Source: Candidatus Bathyarchaeota archaeon (GTDB lineage Archaea; Thermoproteota; Bathyarchaeia; Bathyarchaeales; Bathyarchaeaceae). Taken from it: a stretch of 34,486 nt of DNA. The translations under genes were made by a program, and so were the position numbers. This document shows positions 4,432-15,918 of the stretch, in pieces. Location: contig JAUWZP010000011.1 of the NCBI GenBank assembly GCA_030615265.1, positions 1 to 34,486 on the forward strand, in the 5' to 3' direction. The notes beneath the pieces are model-generated. The model did not search any database. It saw only the letters and a list, made by a program, of their open reading frames with translations, and was not told the origin of the DNA. Position 1 is the stretch's first letter; every line of letters starts with the position of its first letter.

Positions 4432-5580
4432 ATGAAAGCCAAAAGAATAGAAAAAATACTCGTAACCGGCGGAGCGGGCTTCATAGGCTCTCACACAGTA
4501 GACCTCCTCACAAAACATGGATACCAAGCAATAATCCTGGACAACCTTGAACCACAAGTCCACGGAAAACAAAAAGCAAAACCTGACTACATACATAAAG
4601 ACGCGACGTTCATTCAACATGACATTCAAGATCACAACTTCCTAACCAAAATCATCTCAGAAGTCGACGCCATAATCCATCTTGCCGCACTGGTAGGCGT
4701 AGGCCAATCAATGTACCAAATCGAACGCTACATCAACGCAAACACCCAAGCCACCGCCATCCTCCTTGATATCTTAGCAAAACAAGAACACAACATAAAA
4801 AAACTCATAGTAGCCTCCTCCATGAGCATCTACGGAGAAGGCAAATACCACTGCCAAAAATGCCAAACCGAAGCCTACCCAGACCTACGCAGCGAGGAAC
4901 AACTCAAAAAAAGACAATGGAACCAAACATGCCCAAACTGCAAGTCAATCTTGGAACCTTTGCCAACTGACGAAGACAAGCCTTTGATGCCAACTTCTAT
5001 TTACGCTCAATCCAAACGGCATCAAGAGGAAATGTGCCTTCTAACAGGAAAAACCTATGGCATACCCACAGTAGCCTTAAGATACTTCAACGTCTACGGA
5101 TCCCGCCAGTCACTCTCCAACCCATACACAGGCGCCTGCGCCATCTTCACAAGCCGCATACTCAACAACAACCCCCCCTACATCTTCGAAGACGGAAACC
5201 AAACAAGAGACTTCATCCACGTAAAAGACATAGCCCAAGCCAACCTAAAAGCACTTGAACAAGACAACGCAGACTACAAAGCCATAAACATCGCAACAGG
5301 AAAACCCATAACAATACTCAAACTAGCAAAAACCCTAACAAAACTATACAACAAACCAAACCTCAAACCACACATATCCAACCAATACCGCAAAGGCGAC
5401 ATCCGCCACTGCTACGCAGACATAACAAAAGCACAAAAACTACTAAACTTCAAACCCGCAATCACCCTACAAAAAGGACTAACCGAACTAAGCCAATGGG
5501 CCAAAACCCACAACTGGGGAGCCACAGACCTCTTCGAAAAAGCACTAAAAGAACTAAAAGAAAAACACCTCGCAACCTAA
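4432..5580 (+). CDS. NAD-dependent sugar-nucleotide epimerase, dTDP-L-rhamnose 4-epimerase-like
   Basis: This is an extended short-chain dehydrogenase/reductase of 382 residues. The NAD-binding loop is TGGAGFIGS (G13, G16, G19), and the catalytic set is Ser in ASSMSIYGEG with Y191-x-x-x-K195 (YAQSK). RYFNVYGSRQ, TRDFIHVKDIA and NIATGKP are typical substrate-side motifs. Two CxxC pairs (C141/C144 and C167/C170) sit in an insert after the Ser strand, probably binding zinc. This insert, together with VGVGQSMYQIERY, is characteristic of the dTDP-L-rhamnose 4-epimerase branch rather than of ordinary GalE, but the true substrate could be another NDP-hexose. It would supply an activated sugar for the glycan/flippase genes downstream. 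The coding strand is strongly A+C rich, especially 5280-5580. Confidence 0.8.
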   Translation: MKAKRIEKILVTGGAGFIGSHTVDLLTKHGYQAIILDNLEPQVHGKQKAKPDYIHKDATFIQHDIQDHNFLTKIISEVDAIIHLAALVGVGQSMYQIERYINANTQATAILLDILAKQEHNIKKLIVASSMSIYGEGKYHCQKCQTEAYPDLRSEEQLKKRQWNQTCPNCKSILEPLPTDEDKPLMPTSIYAQSKRHQEEMCLLTGKTYGIPTVALRYFNVYGSRQSLSNPYTGACAIFTSRILNNNPPYIFEDGNQTRDFIHVKDIAQANLKALEQDNADYKAINIATGKPITILKLAKTLTKLYNKPNLKPHISNQYRKGDIRHCYADITKAQKLLNFKPAITLQKGLTELSQWAKTHNWGATDLFEKALKELKEKHLAT

Positions 5581-5627: not shown

Positions 5628-5689
5628 TCCCACCTCAAAACACAATAAAACATAAATCCCACTAAAACAAAAATATAAAGTAGGTGGGA
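5628..5689 (+). promoter_or_regulatory. Long-range inverted repeat hiding the VapB-like ribosome site
   Basis: TCCCACCT (5628-5635) is the exact complement of AGGTGGGA (5682-5689), and the latter contains the Shine-Dalgarno for the ATG at 5693. A third partial copy, ATCCCACT, lies at 5657-5663. These repeats could be operator half-sites for the AbrB-type antitoxin or an RNA switch at the ribosome site. The 46-nt spacer is A-rich and contains TATA-like sequence. Confidence 0.4.
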
Positions 5690-5692
5690 AAG

Positions 5693-5935
5693 ATGGCTAT
5701 CCTTGAATTAGACAACAAAGGAAGACTGACGCTACCAAAAAAAATCCGGGAATCTCTCAACATCGGAAAAAAAATACTAATCATAAACGCTGGAGACCAC
5801 CTCAAAATAATTCCCCTACCATCCAACCCACTCCAAATCCTCCATGGCACATTCAACATCAAAAAATCATTCAAAAAACTAAGAAAACAAGCAGAACTAA
5901 CCGGTCAAAACGAAGCCAAAAAACAGAGGAGCTAA
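5693..5935 (+). CDS. VapB-type AbrB-family antitoxin
   Basis: This 80-residue protein opens with MAILELDNKGRLTLPKKIRE, the textbook SpoVT/AbrB swapped-hairpin signature, followed by LNIGKKILIINAGDHLKIIPLP. The C-terminal 30 residues (NIKKSFKKLRKQAELTGQNE) are helical and charged, the usual toxin-binding part of VapB antitoxins. It should neutralise the PIN protein encoded 8 nt downstream and repress the pair's own promoter. The ATG at 5693 is preferred over the in-frame GTG at 5684 because the GTG would lie inside the Shine-Dalgarno AGGTG and the family motif begins right after the ATG. Confidence 0.8.
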   Translation: MAILELDNKGRLTLPKKIRESLNIGKKILIINAGDHLKIIPLPSNPLQILHGTFNIKKSFKKLRKQAELTGQNEAKKQRS

Positions 5936-5943
5936 CCCTCCAA

Positions 5944-6348
5944 ATGCCCCTCTTAGAAAACGACCTCATTTTCGCATATTTAAACGAGTACGACTCCAAC
6001 CATGCGATCGCTGAAAGAATCTTCCAAAAACTCCAAACCGGAAAGATCACCGTAGAAATCTCAAGCGTCAGCCTAATTGAAATGGAGCTAATTTACCGAA
6101 GCGAAAAAATGGAACACAAACTCCTCAAAGACCTAGCCGCCATAGCAGCACTACCCCATGTACAATACATTGCATTAACCCCAGATGTGGCAGTTGCAAG
6201 CGTATACCTGAGGCAAACTCTTAACCTAACATTTTTCGACTCTCACTACGCCGCCATCGCACTAAACCTAGACGGAAAAATTATCTCATTCGACCAGGCG
6301 TATGATAGGGTACCAGGCTTGACACGAATCAAACCTGACACCATTTAA
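5944..6348 (+). CDS. PIN-domain ribonuclease toxin, VapC-like
   Basis: This 134-residue PIN domain has the usual acidic set: E5 or D7 in LLENDLIFAYLN, E46/E48 in SLIEMELIYR, D99 in FFDSHYAAIAL and D117 in IISFDQAYDRV. PIN toxins use these residues to hold metal and cleave RNA. The first motif reads E-N-D where most families have D-T/S-N, so the position of the first carboxylate is shifted or replaced; some archaeal PIN families show this too. The gene follows the VapB-like antitoxin after 8 nt, in the normal antitoxin-toxin order. It sits inside a surface-glycan block, a common place for such addiction pairs. Confidence 0.8.
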   Translation: MPLLENDLIFAYLNEYDSNHAIAERIFQKLQTGKITVEISSVSLIEMELIYRSEKMEHKLLKDLAAIAALPHVQYIALTPDVAVASVYLRQTLNLTFFDSHYAAIALNLDGKIISFDQAYDRVPGLTRIKPDTI

Positions 6349-6509: not shown

Positions 6510-8564
6510 ATGCGAATCACCAAAATCACCTTTCTAGCTACTCACAGCAAAACAGCTTTAACCATAAAGATCGCCGCCATCACACTTGCAACCCTCGCAA
6601 TCTATAACCAAGACTTATTCGCAATAGCCAACGAAGGCACAACGAGCGAACTAATGAGCTACATAATCGCCATACCCTTCCTCTTCGGATACTTCATCTA
6701 CCGCAAAAGGAAAATGCTCAAAGCAACCATAACATTCAAAGAATCTAAACCCTCCAGAAGCAATATCCACATTCACGAAATCGTCGGCGCACTATTCTGT
6801 CTACTAGCCCTCATAATCTACTGGCACGGATCCTACACATTTTATCCACTCGAATACCACATAGCTTCTCTTCCCCTCTTCCTAGCAGGAACCATCCTAA
6901 TAGTATTCAACACGCAAACCCTAAGAACCCTAACCTTCCCCATAACCTTCCTACTATTCCTCATCCCCCCACCCATTCAAACCATCTACACACTAGGCAC
7001 AACACTATCAACGTATAACTCTGAAACCGTATACACACTCCTCAAAACACTAGGCATGCCCGTCAGCCTAACAACCCAATACGGAGCACCAGTCATATTC
7101 CTCGAAAGCTCAGAAATACTGCCCTCAGCCTTCACAATTGACATAGCATGCGCAGGCATATACTCCCTAATAGGCTTCACCCTCTTCGCATCATTCTTCG
7201 CACACATTGCAAGAGGCGCAATGCCAAAAAAACTAGCAATATTCATCATAGGCCTTCCACTAATCTACGGGCTCAACATAATCCGAATCACAACCATCAT
7301 ACTAATCGGCGCCCAATATGGAATAGGAGCAGCCATAGGAGTATTCCATCTCTTCGGAGGTTGGGCCCTCATATTCCTAGGAACTCTAATCCTACTCCCC
7401 TTCTCAGAGAAGATACTAAAAATTCAGATCATAACCACAAAGTCCAAACCACAGCCCTGCTCACACTGTGACAAACGCCCAGTAGAAAAACAAAACTTCT
7501 GCCCAGCATGCGGAAGACTACAAACATACCCACGTATGAAAATCTCCAAACGAGACATGCTCAAAATAACTGCTCTCCTAATAAGCACAAGCCTAATCAT
7601 GCTTTACGGAGTACCCACACTCGCATTAACACAAGGACCTGAAGGAGTCGTAATAACAAGCGGCGAACAAGTAAGCACACAAATACTCCCAGAAATCCCA
7701 AGCTACACACTTGTATTCGTCGAAAGAAACACCGAATTTGAACAAATCTCAGGACAAGACGCCTCATTGGAGTACCAATACGTCGCTTATGGAAGCCCCA
7801 TCATCCGAGTGACCTTAGAAATAGGCGTCTCCCTATCGTCCGTCCATAGACCTGAGATAAGCTGGGTCACATGGCCACAAAGAACTGGACGCCAGCCCCA
7901 AGCCATACAACTAGACCTAAGAGATGTCCAGCTCCTCCAAAACCCACCCATAACCGCCAGGTTTTTCGCATTCGAGCATCCAGGATTTAATCAAACCCAA
8001 GTGATGTTATATTGGTATGAGCAAGCAATCTTCGAAACAGGTTCTGGCCTAGAACAGAAATACGTAAAAATAACCCTCATCGCCAACACTAACAACCCAC
8101 AAAACTTCTCCAAAATCGAGGACATGCTTTTACCATTCGGCGAAGCCATCGCCAACTACTGGAAGCCGATTAAAACCTGGTCCAAAATCACCTTAACCAT
8201 TGCCCAATACGGAACAACCTTGATTGCTGCGATAACCTCTTTGCTAGCAGTCATGCTAATTCTACATCGGATAAAGAGAATAAAACAATCAAAAGCCTCC
8301 CTTCAAACGTTTAACAAACTCGTTTTACCCGAAGAGAGAACCATCCTAAAAGCCGTCAATCAAGCAGGCCAGAAAGGAAGATCCACAGGTCAATCCGTAG
8401 CCTCATTCTATCAGAAACTCTCGCAAGCACCAATCAGATTTAAGACGCTTCTTCAGAAGCTTAGTCAAGCAGAAGAAGCAGGACTAATACACAGAGAAAT
8501 AGCTAACCAAGAGGACAACCCAATACTTATATGGAAAATCAATGTAAATTTGCCGAGTTCCTAA
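6510..8564 (+). CDS. Multidomain archaeosortase (exosortase family transpeptidase)
   Basis: The N-terminal 300 residues form about eight membrane helices with the exosortase/archaeosortase triad: C214 in DIACAGIYSL, R259 in NIIRIT and H280 in FHLFGGW. The family cleaves C-terminal sorting tails of surface proteins and attaches them to lipid. A four-Cys zinc ribbon follows (C317/C320 and C331/C334), then a membrane helix near 350-370. An extracellular domain of about 190 residues comes next, containing VHRPE (H446) and MLYWYEQ, which recall the EpsI/DUF3485 partner of bacterial exosortases. Another membrane helix (about 565-592) is followed by a cytoplasmic winged-helix-like end (about 606-680, ending GLIHREI...LIWKIN). 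Family members are usually about 200-300 residues, so this is a fusion. SD AAGGA lies 9 nt before the ATG. The probable substrate is encoded at 9862. Confidence 0.8.
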   Translation: MRITKITFLATHSKTALTIKIAAITLATLAIYNQDLFAIANEGTTSELMSYIIAIPFLFGYFIYRKRKMLKATITFKESKPSRSNIHIHEIVGALFCLLALIIYWHGSYTFYPLEYHIASLPLFLAGTILIVFNTQTLRTLTFPITFLLFLIPPPIQTIYTLGTTLSTYNSETVYTLLKTLGMPVSLTTQYGAPVIFLESSEILPSAFTIDIACAGIYSLIGFTLFASFFAHIARGAMPKKLAIFIIGLPLIYGLNIIRITTIILIGAQYGIGAAIGVFHLFGGWALIFLGTLILLPFSEKILKIQIITTKSKPQPCSHCDKRPVEKQNFCPACGRLQTYPRMKISKRDMLKITALLISTSLIMLYGVPTLALTQGPEGVVITSGEQVSTQILPEIPSYTLVFVERNTEFEQISGQDASLEYQYVAYGSPIIRVTLEIGVSLSSVHRPEISWVTWPQRTGRQPQAIQLDLRDVQLLQNPPITARFFAFEHPGFNQTQVMLYWYEQAIFETGSGLEQKYVKITLIANTNNPQNFSKIEDMLLPFGEAIANYWKPIKTWSKITLTIAQYGTTLIAAITSLLAVMLILHRIKRIKQSKASLQTFNKLVLPEERTILKAVNQAGQKGRSTGQSVASFYQKLSQAPIRFKTLLQKLSQAEEAGLIHREIANQEDNPILIWKINVNLPSS

Positions 8565-9861: not shown

Positions 9862-10533
9862 ATGTCAAAATCTAAGTCCTTACTAATATTCGCTCTATTG
9901 CTAGCTGTAGTATCAGTTCCACTTGCCAAAGCCGAAACAGGCACGATACGAATCGAACCAGCATTGCCCTTAATGATCGAAAGTCCCGCGAGCTTTGAGA
10001 TATGGGTCCAAGGAGCTGGAGACCCTACTTTCGAGCCCCACCTATTATTGGTTATGACCGAGACATCCTTCGATGGATGGCTCGTCGGCGACCTGGAAGT
10101 CAGTTGGACAGGCGGGTCGACAAGTTTCTCAAAAGCAGACTTCACGTACGCCGATGAACTAAGCGCAAAGGTTCCCCCCTCAGGTACAACACCCGGCGCC
10201 AGATACAATGTAGCAACCCTGAAGACCAAACTGAACTACCCCGTTGAGGAACCAATTGAAGAGCCAATCTACTGGGCAATGAAACCGTTTCTAAGCGGAC
10301 CCCTACACACATCGCCTAAACAAGAGTTCACTATAGAATTGCCATCCACAGATCCCCGAATGCTCATATACGCTCTAGGCAAGACGCAGCAGTCAAAGGT
10401 ACCTGAACTCTTCAACAACAAGGTACCACCTACAATACCGGGATTCGTAGTACCTGAACTTGGCACAATACTCCTAGCCGCAGCACCGTTTGCCGCCCTA
10501 GCACTATACGCGATCAAACGAAAGAAATTGTGA
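9862..10533 (+). CDS. Secreted surface protein with VPEL-type C-terminal sorting tail
   Basis: The 223-residue protein has a clear signal peptide (KSLLIFALLLAVVSVPLAKA, cleavage likely before ETGT) and an extracellular beta-rich domain. It ends in a tripartite tail: the motif VPELGT (from residue 197), a hydrophobic helix, and KRKKL. This is the architecture of archaeal CTERM proteins (PGF-, PEF- and VPxxxP-type) that archaeosortases process. The motif is closest to PEF/VPE variants by eye. The acidic-proline stretch NYPVEEPIEEPIYW and the segment TETSFDGWLVGDLEVSW are distinctive, but I recognise no ligand-binding family. It lies 1.3 kb after the archaeosortase on the same strand and is the obvious dedicated substrate. 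Confidence 0.75.
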   Translation: MSKSKSLLIFALLLAVVSVPLAKAETGTIRIEPALPLMIESPASFEIWVQGAGDPTFEPHLLLVMTETSFDGWLVGDLEVSWTGGSTSFSKADFTYADELSAKVPPSGTTPGARYNVATLKTKLNYPVEEPIEEPIYWAMKPFLSGPLHTSPKQEFTIELPSTDPRMLIYALGKTQQSKVPELFNNKVPPTIPGFVVPELGTILLAAAPFAALALYAIKRKKL

Positions 10534-10789: not shown

Positions 10790-11401
10790 GTGCCCGCAAA
10801 AAACAAACATAGATTGTCGAGTCTCGACAGGTCTATTATCAATATTCTTAGCAACGATCATCCCAAAACGGTTAAACAACTAATCAAGTTGGTGCAACTG
10901 AAGAACGATAGACCTGAACAGGAGATTGCTGAACGAGTCTTGCTTTTGCAGGATCAACGTAAGATAGTCCTTAAAGATCAACTTCCCCTTTCCTTCACCT
11001 TGAAAGACTACATGCTCTCATTTCACGCCTACTGGTACTTAGTAATCATCGTGCTTGCGGCAACCACGACAACTCTCATTTTAGCGAATCTAGAGCGCGC
11101 ACCCATCATTGGAGGTATTCTTCTATACGTAAGATACCTTTTCGGGTCAATATTCGTTCTCTTCCTTCCAGGATACAGCTTCATAAAAGCCCTATTTCCG
11201 GTAAAAGAAATTGACAACGTGGAACGCGCCGCCTTAAGCATCGGAATGAGCCTAGCCATCGTCGCTATCAACGCGCTAATCCTGAACTATACGCCATGGG
11301 GAATATCAACTAACCCCATAACACTCAGTCTGCTTGGCCTAACCTTAACTTTATCAACTGTAGCCGTTGTGCGAGAACATCAAACTCTTTCCAAGAAATA
11401 A
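10790..11401 (+). CDS. DUF1616-like membrane protein with N-terminal winged-helix segment
   Basis: Residues 1-65 look like a winged-helix domain (LDRSIINILSNDHPKTVKQLIKL). They are followed by four membrane helices, including the segment PGYSFIKALFPVKEIDNVERAALSIGMS, which resembles the DUF1616 (COG4743) family. DUF1616 proteins are common in archaeal surface-glycan and sorting loci, but their reaction is unknown. GTG at 10790 is chosen as start because AAGGTGG lies about 10 nt upstream. The flippase follows after about 60 nt on the same strand, so the two are probably cotranscribed. Confidence 0.7.
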   Translation: MPAKNKHRLSSLDRSIINILSNDHPKTVKQLIKLVQLKNDRPEQEIAERVLLLQDQRKIVLKDQLPLSFTLKDYMLSFHAYWYLVIIVLAATTTTLILANLERAPIIGGILLYVRYLFGSIFVLFLPGYSFIKALFPVKEIDNVERAALSIGMSLAIVAINALILNYTPWGISTNPITLSLLGLTLTLSTVAVVREHQTLSKK

Positions 11402-11462
11402 CAAAAACTACATCCAATCTCTATTTCTCCAGCACAAATAAACCTTCGAGGTGTCATGTCTA

Positions 11463-12986
11463 TTGGAAGCTAATAATGTAGCCAAAGGAACTTTCCAAAT
11501 AACATCTATGAACGCCATCCAATACATAGTTATGGCACTCTTCTACGTTGTTGTGGCGAAGACCAATGCCCTAACTCCAGCGGATCTAGGTCTCCTCTCC
11601 GTTCTATCCTTCATCGCCTCTACCCTTGTCTTATCAACACTGGCTTTACCCACAGCGTTAACCAAATTTGCATCGGAATATATGGGAAAAAACCAATCCC
11701 AAAAAGCTGCCTCTGTGCAACGAACCTTGACAAGAACCGTTGTAATGCTATCTCTAGCAGGTCTAATGGTAGCTACCATTCTCTCAGCACCGCTCTCACA
11801 ATACTTTTGGGGAGCCACTGAGAACGTCCCGCTGATAATCCTGATTTCCATATCAGCGTTCCTTATGAACCTGATAACCTTATACCGTTCTGGACTACGG
11901 GCTCTTCAGCTCTTCGGGAAAATGGCACAAGTAACCCTCATATACATCCTTATTAGTCGAATCATCGCTGCTATCCTAGCTTTACTCGGCTTTGGAGTTT
12001 CAGGCGTAATAATCGGCTACATTATAGGATCAATTGCAGGACTAACAGCAGCCATCACATTCGTCCGCGGCAAATTCGCCAAACCCAACAACCGGACACC
12101 CATAAAGCCTCTGCTCAAATTCAGCTTCCCCCTTTTCCTAAGTTCCCTGGCACTACTAATCTTAAGCCAAGCTGACATCATAATCCTAGCTTCTGCCACT
12201 TCTAACTATGCCCTCGTAGGAATCTATTCTGTAGCAGTCCGAAGCCTGCTTGCCCTTTCCGTGATCTGGCAACCAATCATGATCACAATATTCCCAATAA
12301 TCTCATCTCGATTCGGCCTTCAAAATCCTAAAGGTGTAAGCAACGCCCTAAAGATAGCAAGCCGATATTTATCTTACACGATCATTCCCAGCTGTGTTTT
12401 GCTGGCCACCGTAGCACCAACCGCACTAAACGTTTTTTATGGACCAAACTACGTTTCAGGCGCTACGGCCCTAGCTATACTAGCCATATCCATAATACTC
12501 GCTGCCCTCCTCACGCTTTTGACCACAACCTTGACAGCTATCGGAGAAACAAAACAGGTGTTGAAAATTAATCTGATTTCAGCGCTCGTGGCTGTCACGT
12601 TACTTATGAGCCTTGTGTCTATGTTTGATGTGGTCGGAGCAGCTGTCACACGATTGGCGGTGCGTGCCTTAAGCCTGACATTGGCAGTGCATATGCTTCG
12701 CAAACATGTAAGTGTTCAGTTAGACAGAGAAGCGTTGTGGAAGTCAGTCATAGCCTCGATAATGTCCGTACCATTCCTGTTTGTGCTGGAATCTGTGATG
12801 ACTGAAAGATTTCCCGCTTTTCAGGTTTTAGCTGCAGAAATCCTAGTGGCTGGAGTAGTCTACCTCGCATCCCTATATGCCCTTAAGGCTTTGAATGGCC
12901 AAGACTTCGAGCTGCTGAGGCAGTACTTTCCAAAGCCTTTCTCAAAACTAATTGATGGGCTTCAGAAAATCATGACTAGAAAATGA
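11463..12986 (+). CDS. Wzx-like oligosaccharide flippase (MOP superfamily)
   Basis: About 12-14 membrane helices span the whole protein, which is about 507 residues and of normal length for the family. NNVAKGTFQITSMNAIQYIV at the N-terminus, LALPTALTKFASEYMGK, and the central SQADIIILASATSNYALVGIYSVA are typical of polysaccharide-biosynthesis exporters in the MATE/MOP superfamily. Such proteins flip lipid-linked sugars across the membrane for S-layer glycosylation or polymer export. I place the start at TTG 11463, because GAGGTG lies 9 nt upstream; GTG at 11451 is in frame but overlaps that ribosome site. No glycosyltransferase lies next to it, so its partners must be encoded elsewhere. Confidence 0.8.
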   Translation: MEANNVAKGTFQITSMNAIQYIVMALFYVVVAKTNALTPADLGLLSVLSFIASTLVLSTLALPTALTKFASEYMGKNQSQKAASVQRTLTRTVVMLSLAGLMVATILSAPLSQYFWGATENVPLIILISISAFLMNLITLYRSGLRALQLFGKMAQVTLIYILISRIIAAILALLGFGVSGVIIGYIIGSIAGLTAAITFVRGKFAKPNNRTPIKPLLKFSFPLFLSSLALLILSQADIIILASATSNYALVGIYSVAVRSLLALSVIWQPIMITIFPIISSRFGLQNPKGVSNALKIASRYLSYTIIPSCVLLATVAPTALNVFYGPNYVSGATALAILAISIILAALLTLLTTTLTAIGETKQVLKINLISALVAVTLLMSLVSMFDVVGAAVTRLAVRALSLTLAVHMLRKHVSVQLDREALWKSVIASIMSVPFLFVLESVMTERFPAFQVLAAEILVAGVVYLASLYALKALNGQDFELLRQYFPKPFSKLIDGLQKIMTRK

Positions 12987-15450: not shown

Positions 15451-15918
15451 CTAAGTTGTCGCGAGTATAGTGATGTCAAAGCTGAATGTAGTTATCCCCT
15501 GAATGGCTGCAGAAACCGACAACGTGAAAGTCGCTTGGACAACTTCTCCCACTGCGACTTGATATCCTTCACGATCCCAGCTGAGAACCACATAATCTGT
15601 GGCATTTGGAGGATTCCAGTTTGAAGTAAACATAGTTAGGTTGGCTGGGGAACTGCCTTCGTTACGGATATAGACTGCAACCGTTTTGTTTGAACCAGGT
15701 TCTAATGTACCCCAATCAATCCCAGAAACATCCATTGAACCTTCTTGATCCCAATAAATTCCCACGCCAATGGCCGTTATTGATCCACTATTTGAGATTG
15801 TTCTGTTTGACAGGATGGGCGACATAACTGGATTTGTTACGCTGATGGCTAAGGCAAAAATCACAAGTAAGAGTGTTGCTACAAGGATTTTGGTCTTATT
15901 TCTGCTTATTGCTCGCAT
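15451..15918 (-). CDS. Secreted archaeal surface protein with signal peptide
   Basis: The 155-residue protein has a signal peptide or N-terminal anchor (KILVATLLLVIFALAISV) followed by a compact beta-sandwich-like domain. Distinctive segments are GVGIYWDQEGSMDVSGIDWG, VAVYIRNEGSSPANLTMF, SNWNPPNATDYVVLSWDREG and ITTFSFDITI. I know this pattern as a recurrent secreted protein type in uncultured TACK archaea, with no assigned function; that is recalled similarity, not a search result. Sequons (NLT, NAT, NKT) suggest glycosylation. The upstream DNA is A/T-rich with ATACATACTATAAAT, giving a very short leader. Confidence 0.65.
   Translation of the reverse strand: MRAISRNKTKILVATLLLVIFALAISVTNPVMSPILSNRTISNSGSITAIGVGIYWDQEGSMDVSGIDWGTLEPGSNKTVAVYIRNEGSSPANLTMFTSNWNPPNATDYVVLSWDREGYQVAVGEVVQATFTLSVSAAIQGITTFSFDITILATT

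Follow-up and report, generated by a model that had tools for sequence, protein, structure and literature searches.

How does a membrane-embedded sorting enzyme work when its catalytic core is continued by three further domains, and what does it sort? This question is raised by a gene within a stretch of 34,486 nucleotides (the window; contig JAUWZP010000011.1 of assembly GCA_030615265.1, Candidatus Bathyarchaeota archaeon), whose product had been described, in a sequence-only reading, as an archaeosortase fused to a zinc ribbon, an EpsI-like ectodomain, and a cytoplasmic winged-helix end. The features of the gene and its neighbours are listed in Table 1.

Table 1. Features of the archaeosortase locus, in window positions
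Feature	Position	Strand	Basis or remark
Archaeosortase gene	6510-8564	+	one ATG-started frame, 684 aa
8-TM exosortase/archaeosortase core, residues 26-296	6585..7397	+	PF09721, E 2.7e-34
Triad codons C214, R259, H280	7149-7151, 7284-7286, 7347-7349	+	kept across the family
Zinc ribbon CxxC...CxxC, residues 317-334	7458..7511	+	predicted cytoplasmic; conserved Cys, weak zinc-ribbon Pfam matches
Ninth membrane helix, residues 347-366	7548..7607	+	model helix, hydrophobic, basic loop before it
EpsI-like (DUF3485-like) domain, predicted to lie outside, residues 371-566	7620..8207	+	profile-profile match; DUF3485 in relatives
Motif H446-x-x-E449-x-S451	7845-7862	+	deviant copy of HxWExC
Tenth membrane helix and basic stretch after it, residues 568-600	8211..8309	+	model helix
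Predicted winged-helix domain, probably cytoplasmic, residues 607-677	8328..8540	+	model, Foldseek, Cdc6_C matches
Conserved 2-TM partner, 298 aa	8614..9510	+	no known family; large domain predicted cytoplasmic
Likely substrate, with signal peptide, secreted domain, and sorting signal VVPELGTILLAAAPFAALALYAIKRKKL at the C-terminus	9862..10533	+	VVPELGT starts at 10447
DUF1616 membrane protein	10790..11401	+	PF07760, E 3.3e-27
Polysaccharide flippase (Wzx-like)	11451..12986	+	PF01943, E 1e-22

Catalytic core, topology, and distribution of the enzyme

The core clearly belongs to the exosortase/archaeosortase superfamily, as the sequence-only reading had it: the protein scores 119.1 bits on PF09721 (cut-off 25.7) and 58.5 bits on TIGR04178 (cut-off 23), and the CxG, NxxR, and HxxxG motifs are present with the Cys-Arg-His triad. 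The triad residues and the CxxC...CxxC segment, both picked out earlier by eye, proved to be nearly invariant among 28 aligned family members, with C214 and R259 found in all of them, H280 in 27, and the ribbon cysteines 317, 320, 331, and 334 each in 27-28. This conservation is far from chance, and cleavage of a C-terminal signal by the triad would follow from the family to which the enzyme belongs. All of the named NCBIfam types are missed (score/cut-off in bits: XrtD 85.7/400, XrtA 74.3/208, ArtA 34.5/75, ArtB 14.5/150, and ArtC 12.9/100), the best-scoring model being that of the bacterial XrtD. A superfamily match with every type cut-off missed places the enzyme inside the superfamily and outside all curated subtypes.

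The AlphaFold model of the full chain (pTM 0.83, mean pLDDT 82.6) has a folded domain flanked by helices 347-366 and 568-602. TM2, TM6, and TM8 each end in a basic loop, and further basic loops precede TM9 and follow TM10; their positions suggest a topology in which the triad and the 371-566 domain face the outside, while the ribbon and the tail are inside the cell. Whole-chain Foldseek yielded no PDB match below E 0.001, and profile searches of the PDB with the ectodomain or the whole chain gave no convincing relative.

The source genome is a draft in 119 contigs, so that a long chain created by an assembly or frame error should be considered, but dozens of independent genomes, in some cases on long contigs, encode the same architecture at 35-48% identity, and such an artefact is scarcely conceivable. 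In particular, a relative in another Candidatus Bathyarchaeota genome, found in a scan of public genomes, is 43% identical in its best segment over residues 11-681. A search for the same fusion in other archaea, as proposed with the initial description, detected an enzyme match (E up to 1e-10) in 42 of 257 Bathyarchaeia genomes, in 36 of which it is essentially full-chain (counted by hand; starting no later than residue 31 and reaching at least residue 638), and the same full layout is encoded by three genomes outside the class (G311, G423, and G473). The full-length homologues share the whole chain and rule out an assembly fusion of the C-terminal parts. A tblastn search of plasmids with the protein gave no match. 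No published description of the combination of core, zinc ribbon, EpsI, and winged helix was found in the open-access literature, which does not include the main archaeosortase paper of 2012, so an earlier description is possible.

The EpsI-like domain and the relation to known sorting systems

EpsI domains are represented in Pfam by PF11984 (DUF3485), and a profile search with it gave no match on the 6510-8564 protein, while 4 of the 28 family members are matched (best E 4.4e-4); the same model found nothing in 61 genomes of the phylum and nothing in 14 controls either, which makes that search uninformative. The comparison was made with real EpsI domains taken from plasmids, seven of them fused to XrtD, which had been fetched with a hand-written EpsI consensus. 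When aligned by hhalign with these domains, the family ectodomain scores 38.0 (E 6.6e-5) against at most 19.9 for 100 column-shuffled decoys, and the alignment pairs HxWExC with HSPExC and YWYE with YWFE. On this profile evidence, the domain is EpsI-like, in agreement with the initial description. The Foldseek matches to START/Bet v1-like and MTC28-like folds (E 0.035 and above) are too weak to assign the ectodomain a fold relationship.

The motif VHRPE, which had been quoted in favour of the EpsI assignment, is indeed present, but it turns out to be an exception: the motif of the bacterial EpsI domains retrieved here reads HxPExC, and the family form is HxWExC in 27/28 members, W at 448 and C at 451 each being found in 27/28, whereas the 6510-8564 copy (HRPEIS) has P and S at these positions and retains only the H and E. 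No other of the 28 members has P at 448, and VHRPE is therefore weaker evidence of EpsI than it seemed. Moreover, a motif devoid of its Cys means that the outer domain may be altered in the source genome. A more radical version of this idea is that the system is decaying or altered there, the EpsI part being non-functional (C451S, W448P) and the enzyme working without EpsI or barely at all. Two near-invariant residues altered solely in this member of the alignment speak for such a scenario, as do Cys-to-Ser changes at the same place in G311 and in genus g180, where the catalytic Cys is lost too, and a damaged second copy in G066. However, the frame, the triad, the ribbon, H446, E449, and the other ectodomain invariants are intact, as is the nearby substrate gene, and in several lineages Ser at 451 is compatible with an otherwise well-kept chain, so that decay appears rather unlikely.

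The variants just mentioned deserve a description of their own. In the full-length relatives of genus g180 (L169/L177 from G423 and L171/L178 from G473), PSSG stands in place of ACSG, with Ser for the catalytic Cys, and Ser also replaces the Cys of the EpsI motif (HRWEDS/HTWEHS), while the R, the H, and the ribbon are kept; these proteins are either inactive or a Ser-based form of the enzyme. The damaged copy in G066 (L052:9446-10666) lies beside an assembly gap and consists of an EpsI part with a degenerate HSWQVS and a winged helix, with no visible exosortase core; its neighbours are a gene for the partner and one for a signal-bearing protein.

One of the closest known systems is XrtD, the VPLPA-CTERM-specific bacterial exosortase (TIGR04152), where EpsI is likewise fused to the C-terminal side of an 8-TM core and polysaccharide genes are close by. 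The two differ in the motif (HSPExC in XrtD, HxWExC in the family of the 684-aa enzyme) and in length, as XrtD has about 530 aa and stops at EpsI, lacking the zinc ribbon, the tenth helix, and the winged helix. The XrtA/EpsH PEP-CTERM system, according to the consulted part of its description (PMC1569441), shares the Cys-Arg-His core, an EpsI partner, the exopolysaccharide context, and substrates with a PE motif, a TM segment, and a basic tail; in contrast, it is bacterial, EpsI can be a separate gene, there are many substrates per genome, and cytoplasmic add-on domains do not figure in that part of the paper. The same source reported an EpsI-exosortase fusion as early as 2006 (Haft et al., PMC1569441), which, together with the plasmid XrtD-EpsI fusions, contradicts the earlier view of EpsI as a separate protein in known exosortase loci.

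ArtA of Haloferax volcanii (TIGR04125) is also archaeal, belongs to the same superfamily, and cuts a C-terminal tripartite signal (PMC7157517), but it recognizes PGF rather than VPE, and the enzyme scores below the cut-off of its model. A speculative published scheme for ArtA includes a thioester with the active-site Cys, after which an ethanolamine lipid takes over the protein (PMC7157517).

Two groups of archaeal relatives lack the additions. Short archaeosortase-like proteins (about 300-390 aa) occur in the same class of organisms and belong to the same Pfam family, but they score only about 30-60 bits on the profile, compared with more than 100 bits for the long enzymes, have no room for added domains, and cluster apart in a tree of weak resolution. 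Proteins of 550-605 aa from other Thermoproteota (L181, L182, L183, and L184, from genomes G558, G546, G567, and G457, respectively) have the core, a HxWxxC-like outer domain, and the last membrane helix, and their ectodomain profiles match that of the long-enzyme family weakly (E 7.8e-4); they are devoid of the zinc ribbon and the winged helix, and their cores match the long-enzyme profile at about 1e-9 to 1e-14. The deep branching order of the core tree is unresolved, with long branches meeting, and no claim of a bacterial origin is made for this reason. Fusion to EpsI thus is already known and looks widespread, whereas the zinc ribbon and the winged helix, absent from the other relatives checked here, are unusual and appear to mark the long-enzyme family.

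The winged-helix tail

The soluble C-terminus was expected from the sequence to be winged-helix-like, and the structural predictions confirm this. The elements of the AlphaFold model (helices 607-621, 627-638, and 644-656, then strands 660-667 and 670-677) follow the winged-helix order, the tail modelled alone reaches a pLDDT of 87.4, and its top Foldseek matches in the PDB are nearly all winged-helix proteins (Nur/Fur, PadR, Cdc6/Orc). The Pfam family matched by the largest number of members is the Cdc6_C winged helix (11/26, best E 7.1e-4). Prediction thus shows a winged-helix fold of three helices and a two-strand wing.

It had also been suggested that the tail might report membrane status to transcription. 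ToxR and CadC are membrane-tethered transcription regulators, and by analogy the tail could be a DNA-binding winged helix, with the outer domain sensing the state of sorting or of the envelope. The fold matches do include DNA-binding winged helices, namely Nur/Fur, PadR, and Cdc6/Orc, and most members have a somewhat basic tail. But winged helices serve protein contacts just as well, and the pattern of conservation is against DNA binding: the recognition helix has no conserved charged position, the only invariants of the tail are P671 and W675, and conservation is confined to the hydrophobic core and the wing. Few parts of the chain are conserved as poorly as the tail (mean majority fraction 0.42 versus 0.61 for the core). 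DNA binding is not supported by these sequence data, the link to transcription gains nothing from them, and a regulator of this kind is improbable.

The probable sorting signal, the partner, and a proposed model of the locus

The product of 9862-10533, a gene two places downstream of the enzyme, has the tripartite C-terminus expected of a substrate, with a PE motif, a TM segment, and a basic tail (VVPELGT, TM, KRKK), in addition to an N-terminal signal peptide. When the source genome was searched with a profile of neighbour signals, which includes this very signal as a row, it was the sole convincing match, the next two being, as read by eye, a transporter and another membrane protein. No NCBIfam model matches it at E up to 1, and four relatives match no CTERM model.

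Signal-bearing genes, whose products combine a signal peptide with a PE motif, TM segment, and basic tail at the C-terminus, make up 25/180 of the genes near the enzyme versus 9/388 in random regions of genomes with the enzyme (p 2.9e-7, which is indicative since the detector was tuned after the first examples) and 9/365 in random regions of genomes without a long enzyme. Such a gene is found near the enzyme in 20 of 32 loci, while in the other 12 none was detected within three genes. The presence of the general combination of PE, TM, and basic tail in the background genes led to its rejection as an enzyme-specific signal. The signals near the enzyme are mostly V-V/I-P-E with L, Y, V, or I as the next residue, and PEF signals account for 12/18 in the background versus 1/25 near the enzyme (p 1.3e-5, again indicative because of the tuned detector). 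Judging by its sequence and position, the 9862-10533 protein is likely the dedicated substrate of the archaeosortase.

The 2-TM partner, for which no Pfam or NCBIfam family scores above cut-off, is present in most loci, 24 of its 27 matches there being one or two genes from the enzyme, and it is found in 39 of the 42 genomes that have an enzyme match versus 26 of the 215 others, a count that ignores phylogeny. The N-terminal region of the DUF1616 protein is weakly similar to the winged helix of the enzyme (profile match, E 4.1e-4), and DUF1616 homologues occur in 12 of the loci. Genes for DUF1616 proteins, flippases, epimerases, or glycosyltransferases are found in many loci, the last two being partly judged by eye from sequence starts.

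The most satisfactory reading, and one that is somewhat better than even, is an archaeosortase of an uncharacterized type with one main substrate (9862-10533), an EpsI-like helper outside, and a ribbon and winged helix that dock partners inside. It relies on the intact triad, the EpsI-like domain, the winged helix, the enrichment of neighbour signals, the single convincing signal protein, the co-occurrence and adjacency of the partner, and the fact that the enzyme is the only PF09721 protein in its genome (E up to 0.001). Domain make-up, conservation, neighbourhood, and signal are given by the data; from them we infer the topology, the acceptor, the helper role of EpsI, and the docking. At the outer membrane face, the 8-TM core would recognize the V-V-P-E signal, Cys214 with Arg259 and His280 would cleave at it, and the new C-terminus may be passed to a lipid or glycan acceptor, with the EpsI-like domain on the same face presumably assisting the cleavage or transfer step. 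In the cytoplasm, the zinc ribbon and the winged helix would most likely form a docking module for the 2-TM partner and perhaps for the DUF1616 protein, a role suggested by topology, given that the large domain of the partner is also predicted to be cytoplasmic. A bolder proposal, tentative and more doubtful than not, is that the ribbon and the winged helix sense or recruit a cytoplasmic factor (the partner, the ribosome, RNA, or DNA) and switch the sorting of one substrate from inside. We know of no described sortase or exosortase in which sorting is coupled to a cytoplasmic switch.

An uncultured archaeal class thus carries an exosortase/EpsI-type sorting enzyme with cytoplasmic add-ons and a signal class of its own, beside shorter archaeosortase-like proteins. 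As the source genome looks like a one-enzyme, one-substrate case, the role of EpsI and the site of cut and transfer are testable with two proteins, and natural variants are ready for use, with the EpsI Cys lost in the 6510-8564 copy and both cysteines lost in the g180 lineage.

Several other genes in and outside the window are worth recording. Directly upstream of the archaeosortase, an AbrB/MazE-like antitoxin and a PIN-domain toxin form a pair (5684-6348), preceded by an NAD-dependent sugar epimerase (4432-5580) with an inserted CxxC...CxxC segment at about residues 165-186. Small secreted proteins with SFDI-like end strands are encoded at 15451-15918 and by comparable genes close to the enzyme in L051, L056, L061, and L065. 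In a genome of the same genus (L192, G055), the partner, DUF1616, and flippase genes are syntenic, the archaeosortase is not seen at an assembly gap, and there is no signal-bearing gene between the partner and DUF1616. Finally, C-termini of the IPEFPxW type (L097-L116) occur in genomes that lack the long enzyme and have short archaeosortase-like proteins only, suggesting a second enzyme-signal pair.
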